Assembly: GCA_951812805.1 (NCBI GenBank)
Contig: CATOSZ010000001.1
Location: forward strand, 558,001-622,000
Direction of reading: 5' to 3'
Source: an uncultured Alphaproteobacteria bacterium
Lineage (GTDB): Bacteria > Pseudomonadota > Alphaproteobacteria > GCA-2731375
Length of the DNA: 64,000 nt
Part shown: positions 2,597-64,000 of the stretch, piece after piece
Layout of the letters: every line of letters starts with the position of its first letter
Numbering within the stretch: the first letter of the stretch is position 1
Notes under the pieces: model-generated
What the model was told of the DNA's origin: nothing
Seen by the model: the letters and a program-made list of their open reading frames with translations, nothing else
Databases searched by the model: none
Translations under genes and position numbers: made by a program

Positions 2597-2703
2597 GGTT
2601 GTCCCGGTAGTCCACGGGAGGGCCCCGCGCGGCTTCGTGTAGCGCTTTGCGTTACGCGGAGCGAAGCCGCGTGGGAGGGGCCTGTGGGCCCACCGGGACA
2701 ACC
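2597..2703. repeat. 107-bp imperfect palindrome inside the IS (copy 1)
   Basis: The outer arms GGTTGTCCCGGT and ACCGGGACAACC are perfectly complementary. The inner arms CGCGGCTTCG and CGAAGCCGCG are also complementary, around a loop that can itself pair (GTAGCG with CGTTAC through a G-U). The middle of the stem is mismatched. It lies between the IS21 left end and the IS256-like remnant. It could be a REP-like or MITE-like insertion, or a structured RNA. An identical copy lies at 61454-61560. Confidence 0.7.
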
Positions 2704-2815
2704 GGGCCGGCGGCGGAACGTGGGGATCAGGTGGGGTTCTTGAAGTGGCAATGAGCTTTTGAAGTAGTGTCCAGACTGTTCTGCAAGTTTGTCATGGCTG
2801 CCGATGAGGGCCACC

Positions 2816-2863
2816 GGCATGCCTGGCGCGGAGATTTCGATTGCTCGGAGCGCCAGGCATGCC
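2816..2863. repeat. Perfect 14-bp inverted repeat next to the IS256-like remnant
   Basis: GGCATGCCTGGCGC at 2816-2829 is exactly complementary to GCGCCAGGCATGCC at 2850-2863, with a 20-base loop. It lies just beyond the stop codon of the IS256-like transposase fragment, so it may be that element's terminator or end structure. A smaller stem, AGCCGCC/GGCGGCT at 2865-2882, overlaps the fragment's stop codon. Confidence 0.6.
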
Positions 2864-2872
2864 GAGCCGCCG

Positions 2873-3031
2873 TCAGGCGGCTTTCTGGATGCGTTCGCTT
2901 TTGCTCTCCTTGAGATGGATCATGTTGAGCTAGCGGTTGGCATCCAGCCAGTCCTCATGGATTTCGATCGCGAGAGCCCGGACCAGCCGGAGGCAGCTCA
3001 TCCACCCCATCGGCCCGGACTTGTGCCCCAG
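2873..3031 (-). pseudogene. C-terminal remnant of an IS256-like (mutator) transposase
   Basis: The leftward frame reads CLRLVRALAIEIHEDWLDAN, then R, an in-frame TAG at 2930-2932, then LNMIHLKESKSERIQKAA and a TGA. This resembles the extreme C-terminus of IS256-family transposases, where the interrupted position is normally a Tyr in a YLNM motif. The upstream frame is closed at about 3032, so only the tail survives. It is carried as passenger DNA between the IS21 left end and istB, in both IS copies. The family assignment is from memory of the motif, hence moderate confidence. Confidence 0.5.
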
Positions 3032-3096
3032 CTACGAAACCCCTTTTGCAGAACAATCTGTACAGGACCCGTTTTGATTTGCCCGCCTTTGCGATG

Positions 3097-3145
3097 AAAG
3101 CCCCCAGGCTGATTGGCTCCATATAGCGGATCAGCCTGGGGCTTT
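3097..3145 (-). terminator. Hairpin terminator downstream of istB (copy 1)
   Basis: AAAGCCCCCAGGCTGAT at 3097-3113 pairs with ATCAGCCTGGGGCTTT at 3130-3145, with a single bulged base. Read leftward, the stem is followed by T-rich bases. It starts 14 bases past the istB stop and would end istAB transcription. Confidence 0.65.
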
Positions 3146-3158
3146 GCTTACAGGGCGG

Positions 3159-3890
3159 CTACTTTTGTCGTCGCTGTTTGCTTTGTGCGAAGCGGTAAGA
3201 CATGTTGCCTGTTTCGATGATTGCGCAGTGATGCGTTACACGATCCAGCAACGCGGTTGTCATTTTTGCATCTCCGAAGACGGAGACCCATTCCCCGAAC
3301 TCCAGATTGGTGGTGATGATGACGCTGGTCTTCTCATAGAGTTTGCTGATCAGGTGGAACAAGAGCGCACCGCCGGATTTGGGGAATGGGATATAGCCCA
3401 GTTCGTCGATGATGACGCAATCCATGGCCGTCAGTTGCCGGATGATCTTGCCGGCGTTGCCTTCGGCCTGTTCCTTGATCAGCGCATTGATCAGATCGAC
3501 GGCGTTGAAGAAACGGACCTTCTTTCCCTGATTGATCAACAGCGTCCCCAGAGCAATGGCGATGTGGGTTTTGCCCGTACCGGTTCCGCCCACCAGAATG
3601 AGGTTGTGGGCCTCCTGGGTGAACTGCCCTGAGCAGAAGGGGTCGATTTGCGCTTGGGTGACGGCGGCTAGGCCGTAATCGAAAGTGGCGAAGTCCTTAT
3701 GGTGGGGGAACTTCGAGGCCCGCATTTGGTGCTGGATAGAGCGCACCCGGCGCTCTACAGTCTCGGCGTCGATCAGTTGCTTTATCGCAGTGGTCAGACT
3801 TGGCGGCTTGCGCGCGGCCAGCAAAGCTTCGGCGCAAGCCGCCATTCCATACAGCCTCAGGGCGATCAGTTGGTCTATCAAAGCTTTCAT
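3159..3890 (-). CDS. istB: IS21-family helper ATPase IstB (copy 1)
   Basis: A 243-residue AAA+ ATPase of the IstB/DnaC type, which assembles on target DNA and stimulates the IstA transposase. Walker A is GGTGTGKTH at residues 101-109, and Walker B lies in CVIIDELGY at about 158-166. I place the start at ATG 3890: GGAGG lies seven bases upstream and the ATGA overlaps the istA stop by four bases, the usual coupling. A GTG at 3914 extends the frame by eight residues but lacks such a site. The predicted protein is identical to that of copy 2. Confidence 0.9.
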
Positions 3891-5413
3891 GCGACGGCCT
3901 CCCCGGCAACGCACAGCGTCTCATAGCGCTTGCAGTCCGCTTCGGGCCGCAAGGTCAGTTGCGGATAGGCGTGGCTCTCGCCCCATGGCGCGATGACCGG
4001 CTCCACCAGTTGGTTGATCAGATTGATGATGGCCGGAAGGCGCAGCGTGTTCTGCTCCACGGCCAGTTCACAGGCTATCTCGACCACCTCGATCCCGTGA
4101 TCCTGGGCCAGCAGGAGCAGATCGACAAACTCCCGGTCCCCGCCTTTGCCGGCCATGTAATGCGCCCTGACCCGGTGCATCGCCTCAGGCAATTGCCAAC
4201 CCACAAAGGGCGCGCCATCTCTCAGCGCGCCGGGCTTGCGGTCGAGTAGGGGCAGGTAATGCCAGGGCTCGAAATAGCTGGCGTTGCGGGTAAAGCGGCG
4301 CTTGTGCTCGGCAATCACATTCTGCCCTGACACAACCACGATCCGGTCCGCATAGGCGCGCAGAGAGACAAGCTCCCCGGCGAACCGGGAGGGGACGCTA
4401 TAGCGATTGGTGGCATATTGGACCAGACAGGTAGAGCGGACACGAGCGGCCTTCTCAACATAGCCGTCAAAAGCCCGGCCCAGGGGACGCAGTTCGGCGC
4501 ACTCGTCTGCGAACACGTCCGAGATCTTGCGATCCGATTGTTCGGGGTGGGCGCGATTCGCCAATTCCTCGCAGCGCAGACGCAACCAGCCGTTCAGCGC
4601 ATCCAGATCGTCAAAGGCGGGCTTGGGCGCAAACAGCTGTCCCCGCAGGAACCCAACCTGGTTCTCAATCTGACCCTTCTCCCACCCCGCCGCGGGTGTG
4701 CAAGCAACCGGTTCCATCACATAGTGGTTCATCAACGCCAGAAAGCGCGGATGGAACACACGGTCCTTAGAGCGCGAAACATAGGTTACCATCGTCTTGG
4801 GGTTGTCGATGATCACCCGGCGCGGTACGCCGCCATAGAAAGACATCGCCCGTGCAAAGGCGTCCAGCACCATCTCCTGAGATTCGCTGGGATAGGCAAC
4901 AACAAAGGGCTTGCGGCTATGACATAGGCGGAAGTGGGCAACCTTTACCTTCTGCTCGACACCGCCCAGGACAGCGTATTCCGTGCTCCAGTCAAACTGG
5001 AGCGCGTCACCTGCCGTAAAGTGCAACGGAATGAACGCATCCCCCGATCCGGCGCCAGAACGCTTCAGGTCGCGGACAAACCTCTGAACCGTCGAGTAGG
5101 ATCCGCTATAGCCTTCCGACACAAGCTGCTCATAAAGCTTCTTGGCCGTCCGGCGCTCACGGCGCGGGCGCCCCAGGTCCTGCTCAAAGAGCGCCCGAAG
5201 CCGGCTGGCGAAGCCATCGCTAAGCTTACGCCGGACGGGTGAAACGCGCCGCTGATAGCTCGGTGGATCGCCGTCCTTCAGATACTTCTTAATCGTGTTC
5301 CGCGACAAACCAGTCTGACGAGATACAGATCGGATACTCCGACCCTCCCGTAATATCCAACGTCGGATCTTCAATACGCTTTCCATCAATACCACCTGCT
5401 CTTTCCTCCGCAC
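3887..5413 (-). CDS. istA: IS21-family transposase IstA (copy 1)
   Basis: A DDE transposase of about 500 residues that cuts and joins the IS ends. Near the N-terminus is a helix-turn-helix ([16 protein letters not shown]). The catalytic acids are visible, numbered from ATG 5386: D132 in FDWST, D194 in VIIDNPKT, and the E in EKGQIEN near 241. The longest frame begins with GTG at 5413; ATG at 5386 ([10 protein letters not shown]) is the more family-like start. The GTG and part of GGAGG lie in a small hairpin (CCGCAC/GTGCGG, 5408-5425), which could restrain translation. The stop overlaps the istB start by four bases. Confidence 0.9.
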
Positions 5414-26212: not shown

Positions 26213-26842
26213 ATGGCGATTTTTCGACGCACGCGCATCCGACAATCGTTCCTGGCCGACGCGACACGGGTCCTCGTCCTCGCCTTGGGGCTCAGCGCCG
26301 GTGCCGGCCTCGCCACCGGGACCTCCCAGGCGGAGCCACTCGCGGCGCTGGCGACCGGGGCGATGGCCAACTTTATCGTTTCCGAGGCGCCCGAACCAGT
26401 GCCGGAAATCCGCTTCTTCGACGAGAAGGGCACGAAGATCACGCTCGGCGATTTCAAGGGCCGCGTGGTGCTGTTGAACTTCTGGGCGACCTGGTGCGCC
26501 CCTTGCCGGCGCGAAATGCCGGACCTCGCCGAGTTACAGCGCGAGTTCGGCCCCGACGGCCTCGACGTGGTCGCCGTCTCGGGCGACCGCCAGGGCCCAG
26601 CGGTGGTACAGCCCTTTTACGACGAGATCGGCGTCAAGGACCTCGTCGTCTACAACGACCGCACGATGAAGGCGCAACGCGCCTTCCGCGTCTACGGCCT
26701 GCCGACAACGATGCTGATCGACCGCGAGGGCCGCGAAATCGGCCGCCTCCTCGGCCCCGCCGAATGGGCCAGCGCCGACGCCAAGGCCCTGCTCGCAAAC
26801 GCCCTCGGCAAGACGGAAGCGAAGAAGAAGGCGGCGAACTAG
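26213..26842 (+). CDS. TlpA/ResA-type thioredoxin-like thiol reductase
   Basis: A 209-residue periplasmic thioredoxin-fold protein. A hydrophobic N-terminal segment (about residues 17-40) would export or anchor it. The active site is WCAPC with Cys95 and Cys98, in LLNFWATWCAPCRREMPDL. The cis-Pro loop is VYGLPTTMLIDREG. TlpA proteins reduce disulfides in cytochrome c or cytochrome oxidase assembly. The gene is divergent from argH, an arrangement common in Alphaproteobacteria. A strong hairpin immediately follows its stop. Confidence 0.88.
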   Translation: MAIFRRTRIRQSFLADATRVLVLALGLSAGAGLATGTSQAEPLAALATGAMANFIVSEAPEPVPEIRFFDEKGTKITLGDFKGRVVLLNFWATWCAPCRREMPDLAELQREFGPDGLDVVAVSGDRQGPAVVQPFYDEIGVKDLVVYNDRTMKAQRAFRVYGLPTTMLIDREGREIGRLLGPAEWASADAKALLANALGKTEAKKKAAN

Positions 26843-26888: not shown

Positions 26889-27866
26889 CTACTGGCGCTT
26901 GATGAAGAAGCGTTCGCCGCCGCCTTCGATGAACAGCTGTGGGTCGGTCTTGTCGCGGACCTGGGCGCCGGTGTGGGCGAACTTGCCGCCCTTCATTTCA
27001 TATTTGTAGACGCCGTGCACCTTGCCATCGAGGGTGATGGTGATCTCGTAGCTGCCGTCCTCGACGTATTCGGAGGCCGGCACGCTGCCCTTCTTCGAGC
27101 GGGGGTTGAGGTCGTAGCGGATGTACCAGGGCTTGAGCTGCAGCGGATTGGCTTCATTCAGGCCCGGCCAGAAGGACAGCACCTCGCCGTTCCGCTTGAT
27201 CACCATGTTGGTCTGGGGATTGCCCCACTTGCCCGGCTCCGCCTCCTCGTCGCGCAGCCAGACGGAGAACTGGGCGGCGGCACGGCGGTTGCGGGGGATG
27301 TAGATGTAGCCGAAGTCCGCCCACGGTCCGTCCAGGTACCATTTGCTGTCGGGGGTGTAGGCATCCGCACCCGCCGCCACGCGGACGGAGAAGGGGAACT
27401 TTTAGAACGGCTTACCTTCCAGGAAGAACTCCAGGTAGTAGTCGCCGTCCTCCAGCTCGTACTTCTCCGTATCAGCCGGATGCATCATCCAGAACGGTCG
27501 CTTCAGCTTCTGGCCGCTGTAGAACTGGGTGTTGACCACCGCGCCGTCGGCCTTCTTCACCTGGTGCGCGAGGCGGGCGCCGGTGGCGGTGTTGTAGGCG
27601 TAACTGTGCTTCGGATCGTTGTATTCCGGGAAGAACAGCGCGCGAAGCCGGCCGTTCATCTGGATGCGACCTTCCTTCCAGACGACCTGATTCTGGATCG
27701 CGCTCATCAGGTCGGAATAGAGCGGCGCGGGCGGCGGAAACTTCGGGTTGTATTTGAGGGTCTTGCCGGAACTGAGCTCGGCACTCTCGGCCGGGATCAG
27801 CGCCTGGGCGAGCATCAGGCCGGCCCCGACAGCCAGCGCCATCCCGCTTCTCAGATATGAACGCAT
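26889..27866 (-). pseudogene. Secreted protein of unknown function, interrupted by an in-frame TAA
   Basis: One reading frame runs from ATG 27866 (GGAGG seven bases upstream) to 26889, broken only by TAA at 27402-27404. The first 155 codons encode a signal peptide (SGMALAVGAGLMLAQALIP) and a beta-rich lobe ending DGDYYLEFFLEGKPF. After the stop the frame continues KFPFSVRVAAGADAYTPDSK for 171 codons, with a second lobe that ends in the related pattern DGSYEITITLDGK. The two lobes look like an internal duplication. No new ribosome-binding site precedes the second half. The simplest reading is a Tyr-to-stop mutation or a sequence error; readthrough is possible. Function unknown; it is divergent from the propeller gene. 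Confidence 0.7.
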
Positions 27867-28074
27867 CGTTTCGCCTCCTCGAATTGCCACACATTACTCA
27901 GGCCCGGAGCGCTCGTCCCCGCGTGGTGCCCCCGGGTCCCGACAAATGGTAACCGGTCGCCGCCGACTCTCAAACCGAAACCGCAATGACCGGTATTCCG
28001 TTTGCCAGCCCCGGCGCCTTTTGGCACCATCGACGCGAAGATCGCGTCACAACGTCGATGGGGTGGGTTAAGAC

Positions 28075-31000
28075 ATGCGGGTACCTCTGATCGCGGCCGT
28101 CGTCGCCGGTCTGTTTGCACTGGCGGTGAACGTCGAGGCCTTCGCCCAGGGCGACGAACACTGGTCGCGCCAATTCACGAAGCCGCGCGCGCCGACGGCG
28201 ATGGGTCCCGGTACGGGCATGAGCATGGGCAACGGCAAGCCGCTGATCCTCAACGCCAAATGGCACGACGGCAAGTTGTGGATGGCGGGCGCCTGGCTCG
28301 CCGGCGCCAACCCGACGAAGCCGACCCGGCGCGATCCCAACACCTATTGGAACCTGTGGACCTGGTCGCCGGAAGAGGGCTGGCACGCGTTCGCCCATTT
28401 CGGCAAGAAAGGCGGTGCCGGCCCGGACGGGCGGATCTACGACATGGTCTGGCTGCCGGACGGCCGCATGGTCGTCGGCGGCGCCTTCAGGCGCGTCGAC
28501 AACCTGGGCGGCACCATGTACCACCGGGTGAACGGCCTGGCGATCTACGATCCGAACGAGCCGACGGCCAACAAGTGGCGCCCGCTCGGCAGCTTTCAGT
28601 ACAACGGCACGGTCTACAAAGGCCATATCCAGGCGCTGGCCTACGACCCGAAGTCGAACGATCTGTTCATGGGCGGCAACTTCGGCGGGGTCTACGGCGC
28701 CAACAGCCGCCATGTCCACCGCTACGACTTCGACACCGGCACGGTCGAGCCGATGACGCCGGGCGTCATCAGCCCCAAGACCTTCGTGCGCAAGATCCGT
28801 GTCGACACCTCGACCACGCCGTCGACGGTCTATGTCGCCGGCAAATTCCATTATACCGGCGGCGAAGGGCTGGAACCGCGGGTCTCCAAGAGCAAGGCGC
28901 GCTATTCGACGGGCTTCGCCGCCTGGCGGGAGGACGTCGGCTGGATCACCTTCCCGAAGAACGGCGCCGAGCATAAGGAGAACATTCTCCAGCGCGCCGC
29001 CGACTTCAAAAACTTCGACTCGGTCAACGTGCTCGACTTCCTGCTCGACGGCGAGGACATCTGGATCGTCGGCGCCTTCTCCCAGGGCAAGGGCAGCGGC
29101 GAGACCTTGCGCGGCATCGCCAAGTGGGACGCCGAGGCCGAAAAATGGATCGATCCCACGGGCAAGGGCGGCATCGGCCGCGAGGCCTTCGCGATTGGCA
29201 AGACCGAGGACGGCAAGATCTATATCGCCGGCGCCTTCGGCGGCAAAGGCAAGAGCAACGGCGACTTCGACGGCTTCAAGAACGGCGAGGCCGCCGCCAT
29301 GGTCGCGGTGCACGATCCCGCGACGGGAAACTGGAACCAGGTCGGTTCCGGCCTGTTGAGCCTGCCCTTCCCGGAGGCCCGCCTGGCGACCAACGGCAAC
29401 GACGTCTATGTCGTCGGCGACTTCCACTATATCGGCAAGGACAACGACAAGCAGAAAGAGTTCGAGAGCTTCTTCATCGCCCGCTGGAACGAGCATATCG
29501 ACTTCTCGAAGACACCGGCCAAGGTCGCGGCCAAACCGGCGCCGCCGGCCGCGGTGCCGGTGCCGACCAAGCCCATCGCGACCGGCAACGCGCATTGGTC
29601 GCGCGGCTTTCCCAAGCCGCCGCGCCGGCGCCGGCCGGACGAACCGGCGCACTCGGGTGCGACCGGCATGGACGTCGGCACCGGCACGCCGGAGATCCGC
29701 GGCCTCGCGAAACTGGACGACAAGCTCTATTTCGTCGGCGCCTGGGCGGCGGTGCCGAACAGCCGCTGGTTCGTCTGGAGCTGGCACAAGGACGAGGGCT
29801 GGGAACCGCTCGCCTGGGACGAGCGCGGCAAGGGCCAGGGCCCGGCCGCCATGCCGAACGGCATCGTCGCGCGGGACGGCAAGCTATGGGTGCATGGCGG
29901 CCTGCCGAAGTACAAGGGCATCGCGATCTGGGATCCCAAGGCCAAGAGCTGGTCCGCCTTCGAGGGCAAACGCGACGGCAAGACGGTCAAGGGCCACGCC
30001 ATGCAACAGGGCGGCGGCACCATCTACGACCTCGCCTGGAACGACAAGACCGGCGATTTCTATATCGTCGGCGCCTCGGGCCTGCAGAACCCCGACTACC
30101 AGTATCCGGGCGACGTCGCGCCGATCATCCGCGTCGACAAGGCCGGCGCCTATCACACCATGGGGCACGACATTAAGCCCGAGGACGCGAAGAAGCCGGT
30201 CAAACGCTTCGTCACCATGCACATCGACGAAAACCAGGACCCGCCCGCGATCTATATCGGCGGCACCTTCAACTTCAACGGTCCGGCGCCGACCAAGACC
30301 AAGGATCAGGTCTACAACGTCGCCCGCTGGGACGACGACAAGCAGGACTGGGGCCCAATCGGCAAGGGGGTGCCGCCGAAATGGGTCGAACGCGACCGCT
30401 TCCCCGAGGGCTATCCGGGCCTGCCGGCGCGGCCGACCGACTATGTCGGCTTCCTCGAGCCGCTGTTTCCCCGGGTCCACGCGCTGATTACCGACAAGGC
30501 CGGCAACCTCTATGCCGGCGGCACCATCGCCGTGCTGGATTCCAAGACCCTGCCGGTCGCCAAGCGGGTCGAGAGCTTCGGCATCGCCAAGTGGGACAAG
30601 GGAAGCGATACCTGGGTGGGCGTCGCCAAGACCGACGGCTTCAGCCGCGACATCATCGAGATGAGCTGGCTGGACGAGAGCGAAAGCAAGTTGCTGGTCA
30701 CCGGCGGCTTCGAATATGGCAACGACTGGACGCCGCTGAATGGGGTGGCCATCGTCGAGATCGCCACGGGCGAGGTCGAGCCGCTCGGCGGCGGCCTGAT
30801 GCTGTCGACCCGCGACCAGACCGTGGCGCCGATGATCCGCCATGTGAAGGACGGCGACGACATCTATTTCGCAGGCCTGTTCGACCATGCCGGCATCAAC
30901 GCCAATTCGCTGCTGGCGACCCCAGTGCAGAGTTCCTTCGTCGCCCTCTACAACGCGACCAAGGACTTCTCGAAGGACGTGCAGAAGACCGGCGGGCGGG

Positions 31001-31335
31001 TGACCAGCCGGCCCAAGGCCCGCAGCCGCCCACGCGCCGGCGGGGCCGCCAAGCCCGCTTCCACCGGCACCCCCACGACCGGCGGCGCGACCGGCAGCGC
31101 GGCCAGCGGCGGCGGCGGACTCAGCAAGAGCCTCGCCTACAAGGTGCGCACCGCGGAGGAGGACCTGGCGAAGATCGAGGCCGCGCTCGCCTCCGGCAAG
31201 ACGGGCGCCGTCAAGTCGAAGTTGCGCAGCGTCGAACGTGTGCTGAAAGGGCTGAAGCGCAACAAGGCGGCAAGCGCCCATCCGCGCGTCCTGGACGTCG
31301 TCAAACGCTACGAGGCGGCCAAGGGCAAGCTCTGA
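28075..31335 (+). CDS. Large secreted protein, two predicted seven-bladed beta-propellers and a helical tail
   Basis: A 1086-residue protein with a signal peptide (MRVPLIAAVVAGLFALAVNV through AFAQ). It contains two related halves. The first starts DEHWSRQFTKP near residue 27, the second NAHWSRGFPKP near 505. Each half has seven spaced copies of a hydrophobic-Gly-x-Phe blade motif: MAGAW, VVGGAF, FMGGNF, VAGKF, IVGAF, IAGAF, VVGDF; then FVGAW, VHGGL, IVGAS, IGGTF, AGGTI, VTGGF, FAGLF. That fits two seven-bladed propellers, similar in style to kelch or Rax2-like repeats. A Pro/Ala/Gly linker leads to a Lys-rich helical domain from about 1014. No enzyme motif or membrane anchor is visible. Probably extracytoplasmic binding; partner unknown. 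Confidence 0.7.
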   Translation: MRVPLIAAVVAGLFALAVNVEAFAQGDEHWSRQFTKPRAPTAMGPGTGMSMGNGKPLILNAKWHDGKLWMAGAWLAGANPTKPTRRDPNTYWNLWTWSPEEGWHAFAHFGKKGGAGPDGRIYDMVWLPDGRMVVGGAFRRVDNLGGTMYHRVNGLAIYDPNEPTANKWRPLGSFQYNGTVYKGHIQALAYDPKSNDLFMGGNFGGVYGANSRHVHRYDFDTGTVEPMTPGVISPKTFVRKIRVDTSTTPSTVYVAGKFHYTGGEGLEPRVSKSKARYSTGFAAWREDVGWITFPKNGAEHKENILQRAADFKNFDSVNVLDFLLDGEDIWIVGAFSQGKGSGETLRGIAKWDAEAEKWIDPTGKGGIGREAFAIGKTEDGKIYIAGAFGGKGKSNGDFDGFKNGEAAAMVAVHDPATGNWNQVGSGLLSLPFPEARLATNGNDVYVVGDFHYIGKDNDKQKEFESFFIARWNEHIDFSKTPAKVAAKPAPPAAVPVPTKPIATGNAHWSRGFPKPPRRRRPDEPAHSGATGMDVGTGTPEIRGLAKLDDKLYFVGAWAAVPNSRWFVWSWHKDEGWEPLAWDERGKGQGPAAMPNGIVARDGKLWVHGGLPKYKGIAIWDPKAKSWSAFEGKRDGKTVKGHAMQQGGGTIYDLAWNDKTGDFYIVGASGLQNPDYQYPGDVAPIIRVDKAGAYHTMGHDIKPEDAKKPVKRFVTMHIDENQDPPAIYIGGTFNFNGPAPTKTKDQVYNVARWDDDKQDWGPIGKGVPPKWVERDRFPEGYPGLPARPTDYVGFLEPLFPRVHALITDKAGNLYAGGTIAVLDSKTLPVAKRVESFGIAKWDKGSDTWVGVAKTDGFSRDIIEMSWLDESESKLLVTGGFEYGNDWTPLNGVAIVEIATGEVEPLGGGLMLSTRDQTVAPMIRHVKDGDDIYFAGLFDHAGINANSLLATPVQSSFVALYNATKDFSKDVQKTGGRVTSRPKARSRPRAGGAAKPASTGTPTTGGATGSAASGGGGLSKSLAYKVRTAEEDLAKIEAALASGKTGAVKSKLRSVERVLKGLKRNKAASAHPRVLDVVKRYEAAKGKL

Positions 31336-61453: not shown

Positions 61454-61560
61454 GGTTGTCCCGGTAGTCCACGGGAGGGCCCCGCGCGGCTTCGTGTAGC
61501 GCTTTGCGTTACGCGGAGCGAAGCCGCGTGGGAGGGGCCTGTGGGCCCACCGGGACAACC
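61454..61560. repeat. 107-bp imperfect palindrome inside the IS (copy 2)
   Basis: Identical to 2597-2703, with the same arms GGTTGTCCCGGT and ACCGGGACAACC. Its presence in both copies shows that it was part of the element before the copies spread. Confidence 0.7.
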
Positions 61561-61729
61561 GGGCCGGCGGCGGAACGTGGGGATCAGGTGGGGTTCTTGA
61601 AGTGGCAATGAGCTTTTGAAGTAGTGTCCAGACTGTTCTGCAAGTTTGTCATGGCTGCCGATGAGGGCCACCGGCATGCCTGGCGCGGAGATTTCGATTG
61701 CTCGGAGCGCCAGGCATGCCGAGCCGCCG

Positions 61730-61888
61730 TCAGGCGGCTTTCTGGATGCGTTCGCTTTTGCTCTCCTTGAGATGGATCATGTTGAGCTAGCGGTTGGCAT
61801 CCAGCCAGTCCTCATGGATTTCGATCGCGAGAGCCCGGACCAGCCGGAGGCAGCTCATCCACCCCATCGGCCCGGACTTGTGCCCCAG
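61730..61888 (-). pseudogene. IS256-like transposase C-terminal remnant (copy 2)
   Basis: Same fragment as at 2873-3031, including the internal TAG in the R-stop-LNM position. Confidence 0.5.
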
Positions 61889-61953
61889 CTACGAAACCCC
61901 TTTTGCAGAACAATCTGTACAGGACCCGTTTTGATTTGCCCGCCTTTGCGATG

Positions 61954-62002
61954 AAAGCCCCCAGGCTGATTGGCTCCATATAGCGGATCAGCCTGGGGCT
62001 TT
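61954..62002 (-). terminator. Hairpin terminator downstream of istB (copy 2)
   Basis: Same stem as at 3097-3145 (AAAGCCCCCAGGCTGAT with ATCAGCCTGGGGCTTT). Confidence 0.65.
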
Positions 62003-62015
62003 GCTTACAGGGCGG

Positions 62016-62747
62016 CTACTTTTGTCGTCGCTGTTTGCTTTGTGCGAAGCGGTAAGACATGTTGCCTGTTTCGATGATTGCGCAGTGATGCGTTACACGA
62101 TCCAGCAACGCGGTTGTCATTTTTGCATCTCCGAAGACGGAGACCCATTCCCCGAACTCCAGATTGGTGGTGATGATGACGCTGGTCTTCTCATAGAGTT
62201 TGCTGATCAGGTGGAACAAGAGCGCACCGCCGGATTTGGGGAATGGGATATAGCCCAGTTCGTCGATGATGACGCAATCCATGGCCGTCAGTTGCCGGAT
62301 GATCTTGCCGGCGTTGCCTTCGGCCTGTTCCTTGATCAGCGCATTGATCAGATCGACGGCGTTGAAGAAACGGACCTTCTTTCCCTGATTGATCAACAGC
62401 GTCCCCAGAGCAATGGCGATGTGGGTTTTGCCCGTACCGGTTCCGCCCACCAGAATGAGGTTGTGGGCCTCCTGGGTGAACTGCCCTGAGCAGAAGGGGT
62501 CGATTTGCGCTTGGGTGACGGCGGCTAGGCCGTAATCGAAAGTGGCGAAGTCCTTATGGTGGGGGAACTTCGAGGCCCGCATTTGGTGCTGGATAGAGCG
62601 CACCCGGCGCTCTACAGTCTCGGCGTCGATCAGTTGCTTTATCGCAGTGGTCAGACTTGGCGGCTTGCGCGCGGCCAGCAAAGCTTCGGCGCAAGCCGCC
62701 ATTCCATACAGCCTCAGGGCGATCAGTTGGTCTATCAAAGCTTTCAT
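62016..62747 (-). CDS. istB: IS21-family helper ATPase IstB (copy 2)
   Basis: The 243-residue product is identical to copy 1, with Walker [10 protein letters not shown] and Walker [12 protein letters not shown] 62747 has the same GGAGG and four-base overlap with istA. Confidence 0.9.
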
Positions 62748-64000
62748 GCGACGGCCTCCCCGGCAACGCACAGCGTCTCATAGCGCTTGCAGTCCGCTTC
62801 GGGCCGCAAGGTCAGTTGCGGATAGGCGTGGCTCTCGCCCCATGGCGCGATGACCGGCTCCACCAGTTGGTTGATCAGATTGATGATGGCCGGAAGGCGC
62901 AGCGTGTTCTGCTCCACGGCCAGTTCACAGGCTATCTCGACCACCTCGATCCCGTGATCCTGGGCCAGCAGGAGCAGATCGACAAACTCCCGGTCCCCGC
63001 CTTTGCCGGCCATGTAATGCGCCCTGACCCGGTGCATCGCCTCAGGCAATTGCCAACCCACAAAGGGCGCGCCATCTCTCAGCGCGCCGGGCTTGCGGTC
63101 GAGTAGGGGCAGGTAATGCCAGGGCTCGAAATAGCTGGCGTTGCGGGTAAAGCGGCGCTTGTGCTCGGCAATCACATTCTGCCCTGACACAACCACGATC
63201 CGGTCCGCATAGGCGCGCAGAGAGACAAGCTCCCCGGCGAACCGGGAGGGGACGCTATAGCGATTGGTGGCATATTGGACCAGACAGGTAGAGCGGACAC
63301 GAGCGGCCTTCTCAACATAGCCGTCAAAAGCCCGGCCCAGGGGACGCAGTTCGGCGCACTCGTCTGCGAACACGTCCGAGATCTTGCGATCCGATTGTTC
63401 GGGGTGGGCGCGATTCGCCAATTCCTCGCAGCGCAGACGCAACCAGCCGTTCAGCGCATCCAGATCGTCAAAGGCGGGCTTGGGCGCAAACAGCTGTCCC
63501 CGCAGGAACCCAACCTGGTTCTCAATCTGACCCTTCTCCCACCCCGCCGCGGGTGTGCAAGCAACCGGTTCCATCACATAGTGGTTCATCAACGCCAGAA
63601 AGCGCGGATGGAACACACGGTCCTTAGAGCGCGAAACATAGGTTACCATCGTCTTGGGGTTGTCGATGATCACCCGGCGCGGTACGCCGCCATAGAAAGA
63701 CATCGCCCGTGCAAAGGCGTCCAGCACCATCTCCTGAGATTCGCTGGGATAGGCAACAACAAAGGGCTTGCGGCTATGACATAGGCGGAAGTGGGCAACC
63801 TTTACCTTCTGCTCGACACCGCCCAGGACAGCGTATTCCGTGCTCCAGTCAAACTGGAGCGCGTCACCTGCCGTAAAGTGCAACGGAATGAACGCATCCC
63901 CCGATCCGGCGCCAGAACGCTTCAGGTCGCGGACAAACCTCTGAACCGTCGAGTAGGATCCGCTATAGCCTTCCGACACAAGCTGCTCATAAAGCTTCTT
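62744..64000 (-). CDS. istA: IS21-family transposase IstA (copy 2, 5' end beyond the window)
   Basis: The C-terminal 418 codons of istA, carrying the catalytic motifs [13 protein letters not shown] and EKGQIEN, identical in translation to copy 1. By alignment with copy 1 the start would fall at about 64243-64270. Confidence 0.88.

Follow-up and report, generated by a model that had tools for sequence, protein, structure and literature searches.

A single in-frame stop codon interrupts an otherwise open minus-strand reading frame in the 64-kb stretch of DNA analyzed here (the window), and it probably arose by a recent nonsense point mutation; the affected gene is accessory, occurs in a single copy and is predicted to encode an exported protein with two Ig-like beta-sandwich lobes. 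The frame runs from the ATG at 27866 to the TAG at 26891-26889 and comprises 324 sense codons, with the TAA at 27404-27402, after sense codon 154, as its sole interruption; the 325 codons thus hold one stop and no frameshift, as had been claimed in the original prediction. The gene is present in one copy in its own 7.42 Mb genome, its N-terminus reads by eye as a signal peptide, the coding signal extends on both sides of the stop, and its relatives are intact. Bacterial genes that are intact but for one in-frame stop are well known from the literature, and the case described here is ordinary, being either a gene of an unnamed family that has been interrupted or an erroneous base call. The interruption of one gene of an uncharacterized family of predicted exported two-lobe proteins in this genome matters little, except as a warning to annotators against recording the parts as separate genes. 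The coordinates are collected in Table 1.

Table 1. Features of the interrupted gene and its surroundings (positions in the window)
Feature	Position	Strand	Remarks
TlpA-like thioredoxin-fold neighbour	26213..26842	+	Pfam AhpC-TSA and Redoxin; in 15/15 family genomes
Whole interrupted gene	26889..27866	-	ATG 27866-27864, final TAG 26891-26889; translation with one internal stop
Second part, 170 codons	26892..27401	-	Last strand of the first lobe and second lobe
GTG, seven codons past the stop	27378..27380	-	No Shine-Dalgarno-like sequence ahead; unlikely restart site
In-frame TAA, codon 155	27402..27404	-	Column in relatives: Ser, Ser, Thr, Thr
First part, 154 codons	27405..27866	-	Signal peptide (by eye) and most of the first Ig-like lobe
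GAGGAGG, Shine-Dalgarno-like	27874..27880	-	Precedes the ATG at 27866
1086-aa protein, secreted-looking	28075..31335	+	Weak Kelch/beta-propeller matches; divergent from the interrupted gene

Both sides of the stop had been described as protein-like and lacking a second start signal, and the analysis agrees on each count. With twelve long ORFs of the window as the training set, codon scores were 0.46 per codon before the TAA and 0.59 after it, while the five remaining frames were all negative, and GC3 was 0.85 in the first part and 0.90 in the second. The first start-type codon downstream of the TAA is the GTG at seven codons, which has no Shine-Dalgarno-like sequence ahead of it, and the first ATG follows only at codon 65. 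On the opposite strand an ORF of 295 codons (26973-27860) runs antisense to the interrupted gene and is free of stops across the whole site; it was rejected as a real gene, its strand scoring below zero in all three frames, and is regarded as a shadow ORF. In a G+C-rich genome it is common for ORFs of one frame to abut, and the window as a whole, which served as control, contains five pairs of ORFs on the same strand and in the same frame that abut at a stop and carry a coding signal, each ORF of at least 80 codons. In the four pairs other than the one reported here an ATG lies 1 to 14 codons past the stop, and the reported pair alone has no near ATG. The halves of all four control pairs fall into different Pfam families (Sel1 repeats and FAA hydrolase; amidase and MFS transporter; Cys-Met metabolism PLP enzyme and histidine kinase; CofC and radical SAM), so that abutting frames by themselves are no proof of a split gene. 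The proof that this is a single split gene is homology, as all four full-length relatives found are one continuous gene.

These four relatives (L003 in genome G092, L004 in G352, and L008 and L009, which come from named metagenome-assembled alphaproteobacterial genomes) each consist of a single uninterrupted frame of 316 to 320 residues, the length of 317 for L004 being obtained with an inner ATG taken as the start. The alignment with these relatives therefore returned one continuous gene in every case, and not two separate genes. The window protein resembles this family in its length of about 320 residues, its signal-like N-terminus, its two related lobes and the motif FPF, which follows the stop column in the window protein and in its relatives; it differs in that the TAA is found only in the window copy, that identity is low on either side of the site (21-33% before the stop and 21-24% after it), and that the gene neighbours of all four relatives are other than those in the window. 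The columns that are invariant among the relatives are retained by the window protein in 10 of 15 cases before the stop and in 17 of 42 after it, and this lower retention in the second part is not significant (Fisher p = 0.13). At the stop column itself the relatives carry Ser (L003 and L008) or Thr (L004 and L009). None of the four has a stop there and none has Tyr, so the suggestion that a tyrosine codon had been lost finds no support. Since the relatives are remote, they establish that the ancestral gene was continuous and leave the exact residue lost unfixed. Their continuity (4/4) fits a nonsense mutation or a sequence error. Three further candidates (L005, L006, and L007) gave weak partial matches (E 0.0015 to 0.0044), two of them with an internal stop; they were not counted because at equal genome number they were not recovered by the profile at E 0.001.

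A relationship between the two lobes had also been predicted, and comparison of the first-lobe and second-lobe profiles by hhalign bears this out, with a score of 29.6 (E 0.0003), whereas none of 40 column shuffles scored above 20.0; in this alignment the strand pair at the stop pairs with the corresponding strand pair of lobe 2. A structure model built for L003 with a five-row alignment (mean pLDDT 69) consists of two lobes, both all-beta. In this model the stop aligns with S130, the fourth residue of strand 127-138, which is the final strand of lobe 1 and lies in a region of moderate model confidence (77 and 75 for the two blocks involved). As the stop falls inside the last strand of the first modeled beta-sandwich, the truncated protein would amount to an incomplete domain. 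Foldseek returned two matches at E ≤ 0.001, with TM-scores of at most 0.22, and the VIA-align matches listed include beta-sandwich domains of many unrelated proteins, with Z below 8; the fold matches are thus generic and do not point to a function. There is a weak resemblance to filamin-type Ig repeats, at the level of the fold only. It consists of a weak profile match between the strand pair at the site, with the pattern G-x-Y...PF, and two filamin-A repeats (2j3s). On the other side, E is 0.42 for the chain, single stretches are not significant, and no filamin chain is among the 50 structure matches listed.

The epidemiology of the gene is that of an accessory element. It occurs only in its own genome among the 15 of the taxonomic family or order and is missing from all 14 others, and the protein family was found in two of 96 relatives' genomes, its own included. 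A profile search of the class detected it in three of 385 genomes, again counting its own, and a profile search of 398 genomes of the phylum found it in its own genome only (1/398). The orders of G092 and G352 yielded no additional member (1/1 and 1/10, respectively), and a tblastn search against plasmid records gave no match. The first scan of the genome contigs found no relative, and neither scan of the contigs found a near copy. Searches of Pfam and of NCBIfam, the latter with the two window parts and L003 only, gave nothing over the cut-off. This is a rare family of predicted exported two-lobe proteins, with no Pfam match over the cut-off and scattered over remote alphaproteobacterial lineages. 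On one side the gene adjoins tlpA, and tlpA has argH as its neighbour both here and in 13 of the other 14 genomes of the family as fetched, the stretch from the remaining one (L086) ending at tlpA. On the other side the gene for the 1086-aa protein was found in one of the 15 family genomes, its own. As both this gene and the interrupted gene are absent from all 14 other genomes, they are accessory genes, which in this lineage have been inserted behind tlpA, and the absence of the interrupted gene from 14 of 14 genomes, when tlpA is present in 15 of 15, indicates that it is dispensable at the family level. The window also carries two copies of an IS21-type element (2601-5143 and 61458-64000), composed of IstB and a transposase with rve and Mu-transpos_C_2 domains. 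The copies are 100% identical over 2543 bases and share one orientation; each lies towards one end of the window, about 59 kb from the other, and the second continues past the window end.

In the scenario that we favour, a substitution would have created the stop codon in a dispensable single-copy gene. Ribosomes would terminate once 154 codons have been read, and the resulting fragment, though exported, would be missing lobe 2 entirely and the greater part of the strand that closes lobe 1; its probable fate would be degradation, and no useful amount of translation would reach the final 170 codons. The interrupted gene would then be a fresh null allele or pseudogene, too young to have acquired a second lesion. 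A stop would be created by 64 of the 1530 single changes that the second part can undergo, and if this part is neutral the absence of a second stop fits an age of the event below about 0.14 substitutions per site (the probability is 5% at 0.14). This age bound is a weak one and includes zero, the value that a base-call error would give. The gene matches what is described for interrupted CDSs and young bacterial pseudogenes in parts of PMC2277376 and PMC7918605 in having one in-frame stop, a frame otherwise intact and uninterrupted relatives, and is unlike them in that it is known from one strain. The fully coding-like second lobe is predicted alike by a very recent mutation, by an error and by functional readthrough.

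The main rival to a recent mutation is a sequencing or assembly error, i.e., the assembly could be wrong at the stop base, with one base miscalled and the gene intact in the living organism. We consider this distinctly less probable than a mutation, though it deserves to be taken seriously. It would account for both halves looking fully coding and for the reported pair being the only same-frame split in the window without a near ATG after the stop, and the stop site adjoins a short T run on the plus strand. The usual type of error at single-base runs is an indel, however, and any error here must be a substitution because both sides share one frame. Nor is there any indication that errors are frequent: the window contains no other unexplained same-frame split, and tlpA, the gene for the 1086-aa neighbour and the two release-factor genes of the genome are all free of internal stops. 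With regard to the three options that had been put forward for the stop, the continuity of the relatives agrees with mutation and with error, and the third, a readthrough site yielding a short and a long form, fares badly for the reasons given below.

That the short form is functional, with loss of the second lobe tolerated or even selected, is improbable. The start codon, the Shine-Dalgarno-like sequence and the signal-like N-terminus are all intact, but in the model the stop comes at the fourth residue of the strand that closes lobe 1 and leaves the domain unfinished. All four relatives have two lobes and none has one, and the second lobe is undecayed.

Programmed or tolerated readthrough of the UAA to give short and long forms is a still poorer candidate, and it is equally doubtful that a natural ochre readthrough confined to this lineage produces a short exported form ending in the first lobe together with a rare two-lobe form. 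Readthrough would agree with the intact downstream frame, but the conservation of the stop that programmed readthrough would lead one to expect is absent from all four relatives, which are remote (21-33% identical). The stop is neither UGA nor UAG and lies in no recoding context, the base right after the UAA being A. UAA is generally the least leaky stop. The short form would, moreover, end within a beta strand of the model. TAA terminates four of the 51 coding segments of the window, the interrupted gene included, and is thus an ordinary stop here; reassignment of TAA as a sense codon was rejected on account of the three other segments that it ends. Two genes with a PCRF release-factor domain are present in the genome, and no stop-reading anticodon was found among its 44 tRNA matches, although this set is incomplete in that Ile-GAU, Ala-UGC, and Glu-UUC are missing from it. 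Near-cognate reading of a stop requires no special tRNA. Were readthrough true it would be a rare UAA case, and nothing here points to it. In its favour, parts of PMC7918605 argue that prokaryotes frequently have in-frame stops that are read through, with a dN/dS of 0.74 around in-frame TAA. The paper also describes in-frame stops as widespread in the genes of bacteria and often still constrained, yet short-lived. That account fits a recent mutation at least as well as readthrough.

The least probable reading, two separate adjacent genes with the second restarting at the in-frame GTG near the stop, was discarded, since no Shine-Dalgarno-like sequence precedes this GTG, the second part has no signal peptide, and the four relatives are all fused. 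Elsewhere in the genome (L052:152-298 in G000:C2), a tRNA-Phe of low score (39.7 bits) lies directly against, or overlaps, a second tRNA of 74 bases, which was typed as Ser(CGA) and is too short for a usual tRNA-Ser; these may perhaps be tRNAs of a mobile element or decayed tRNAs.
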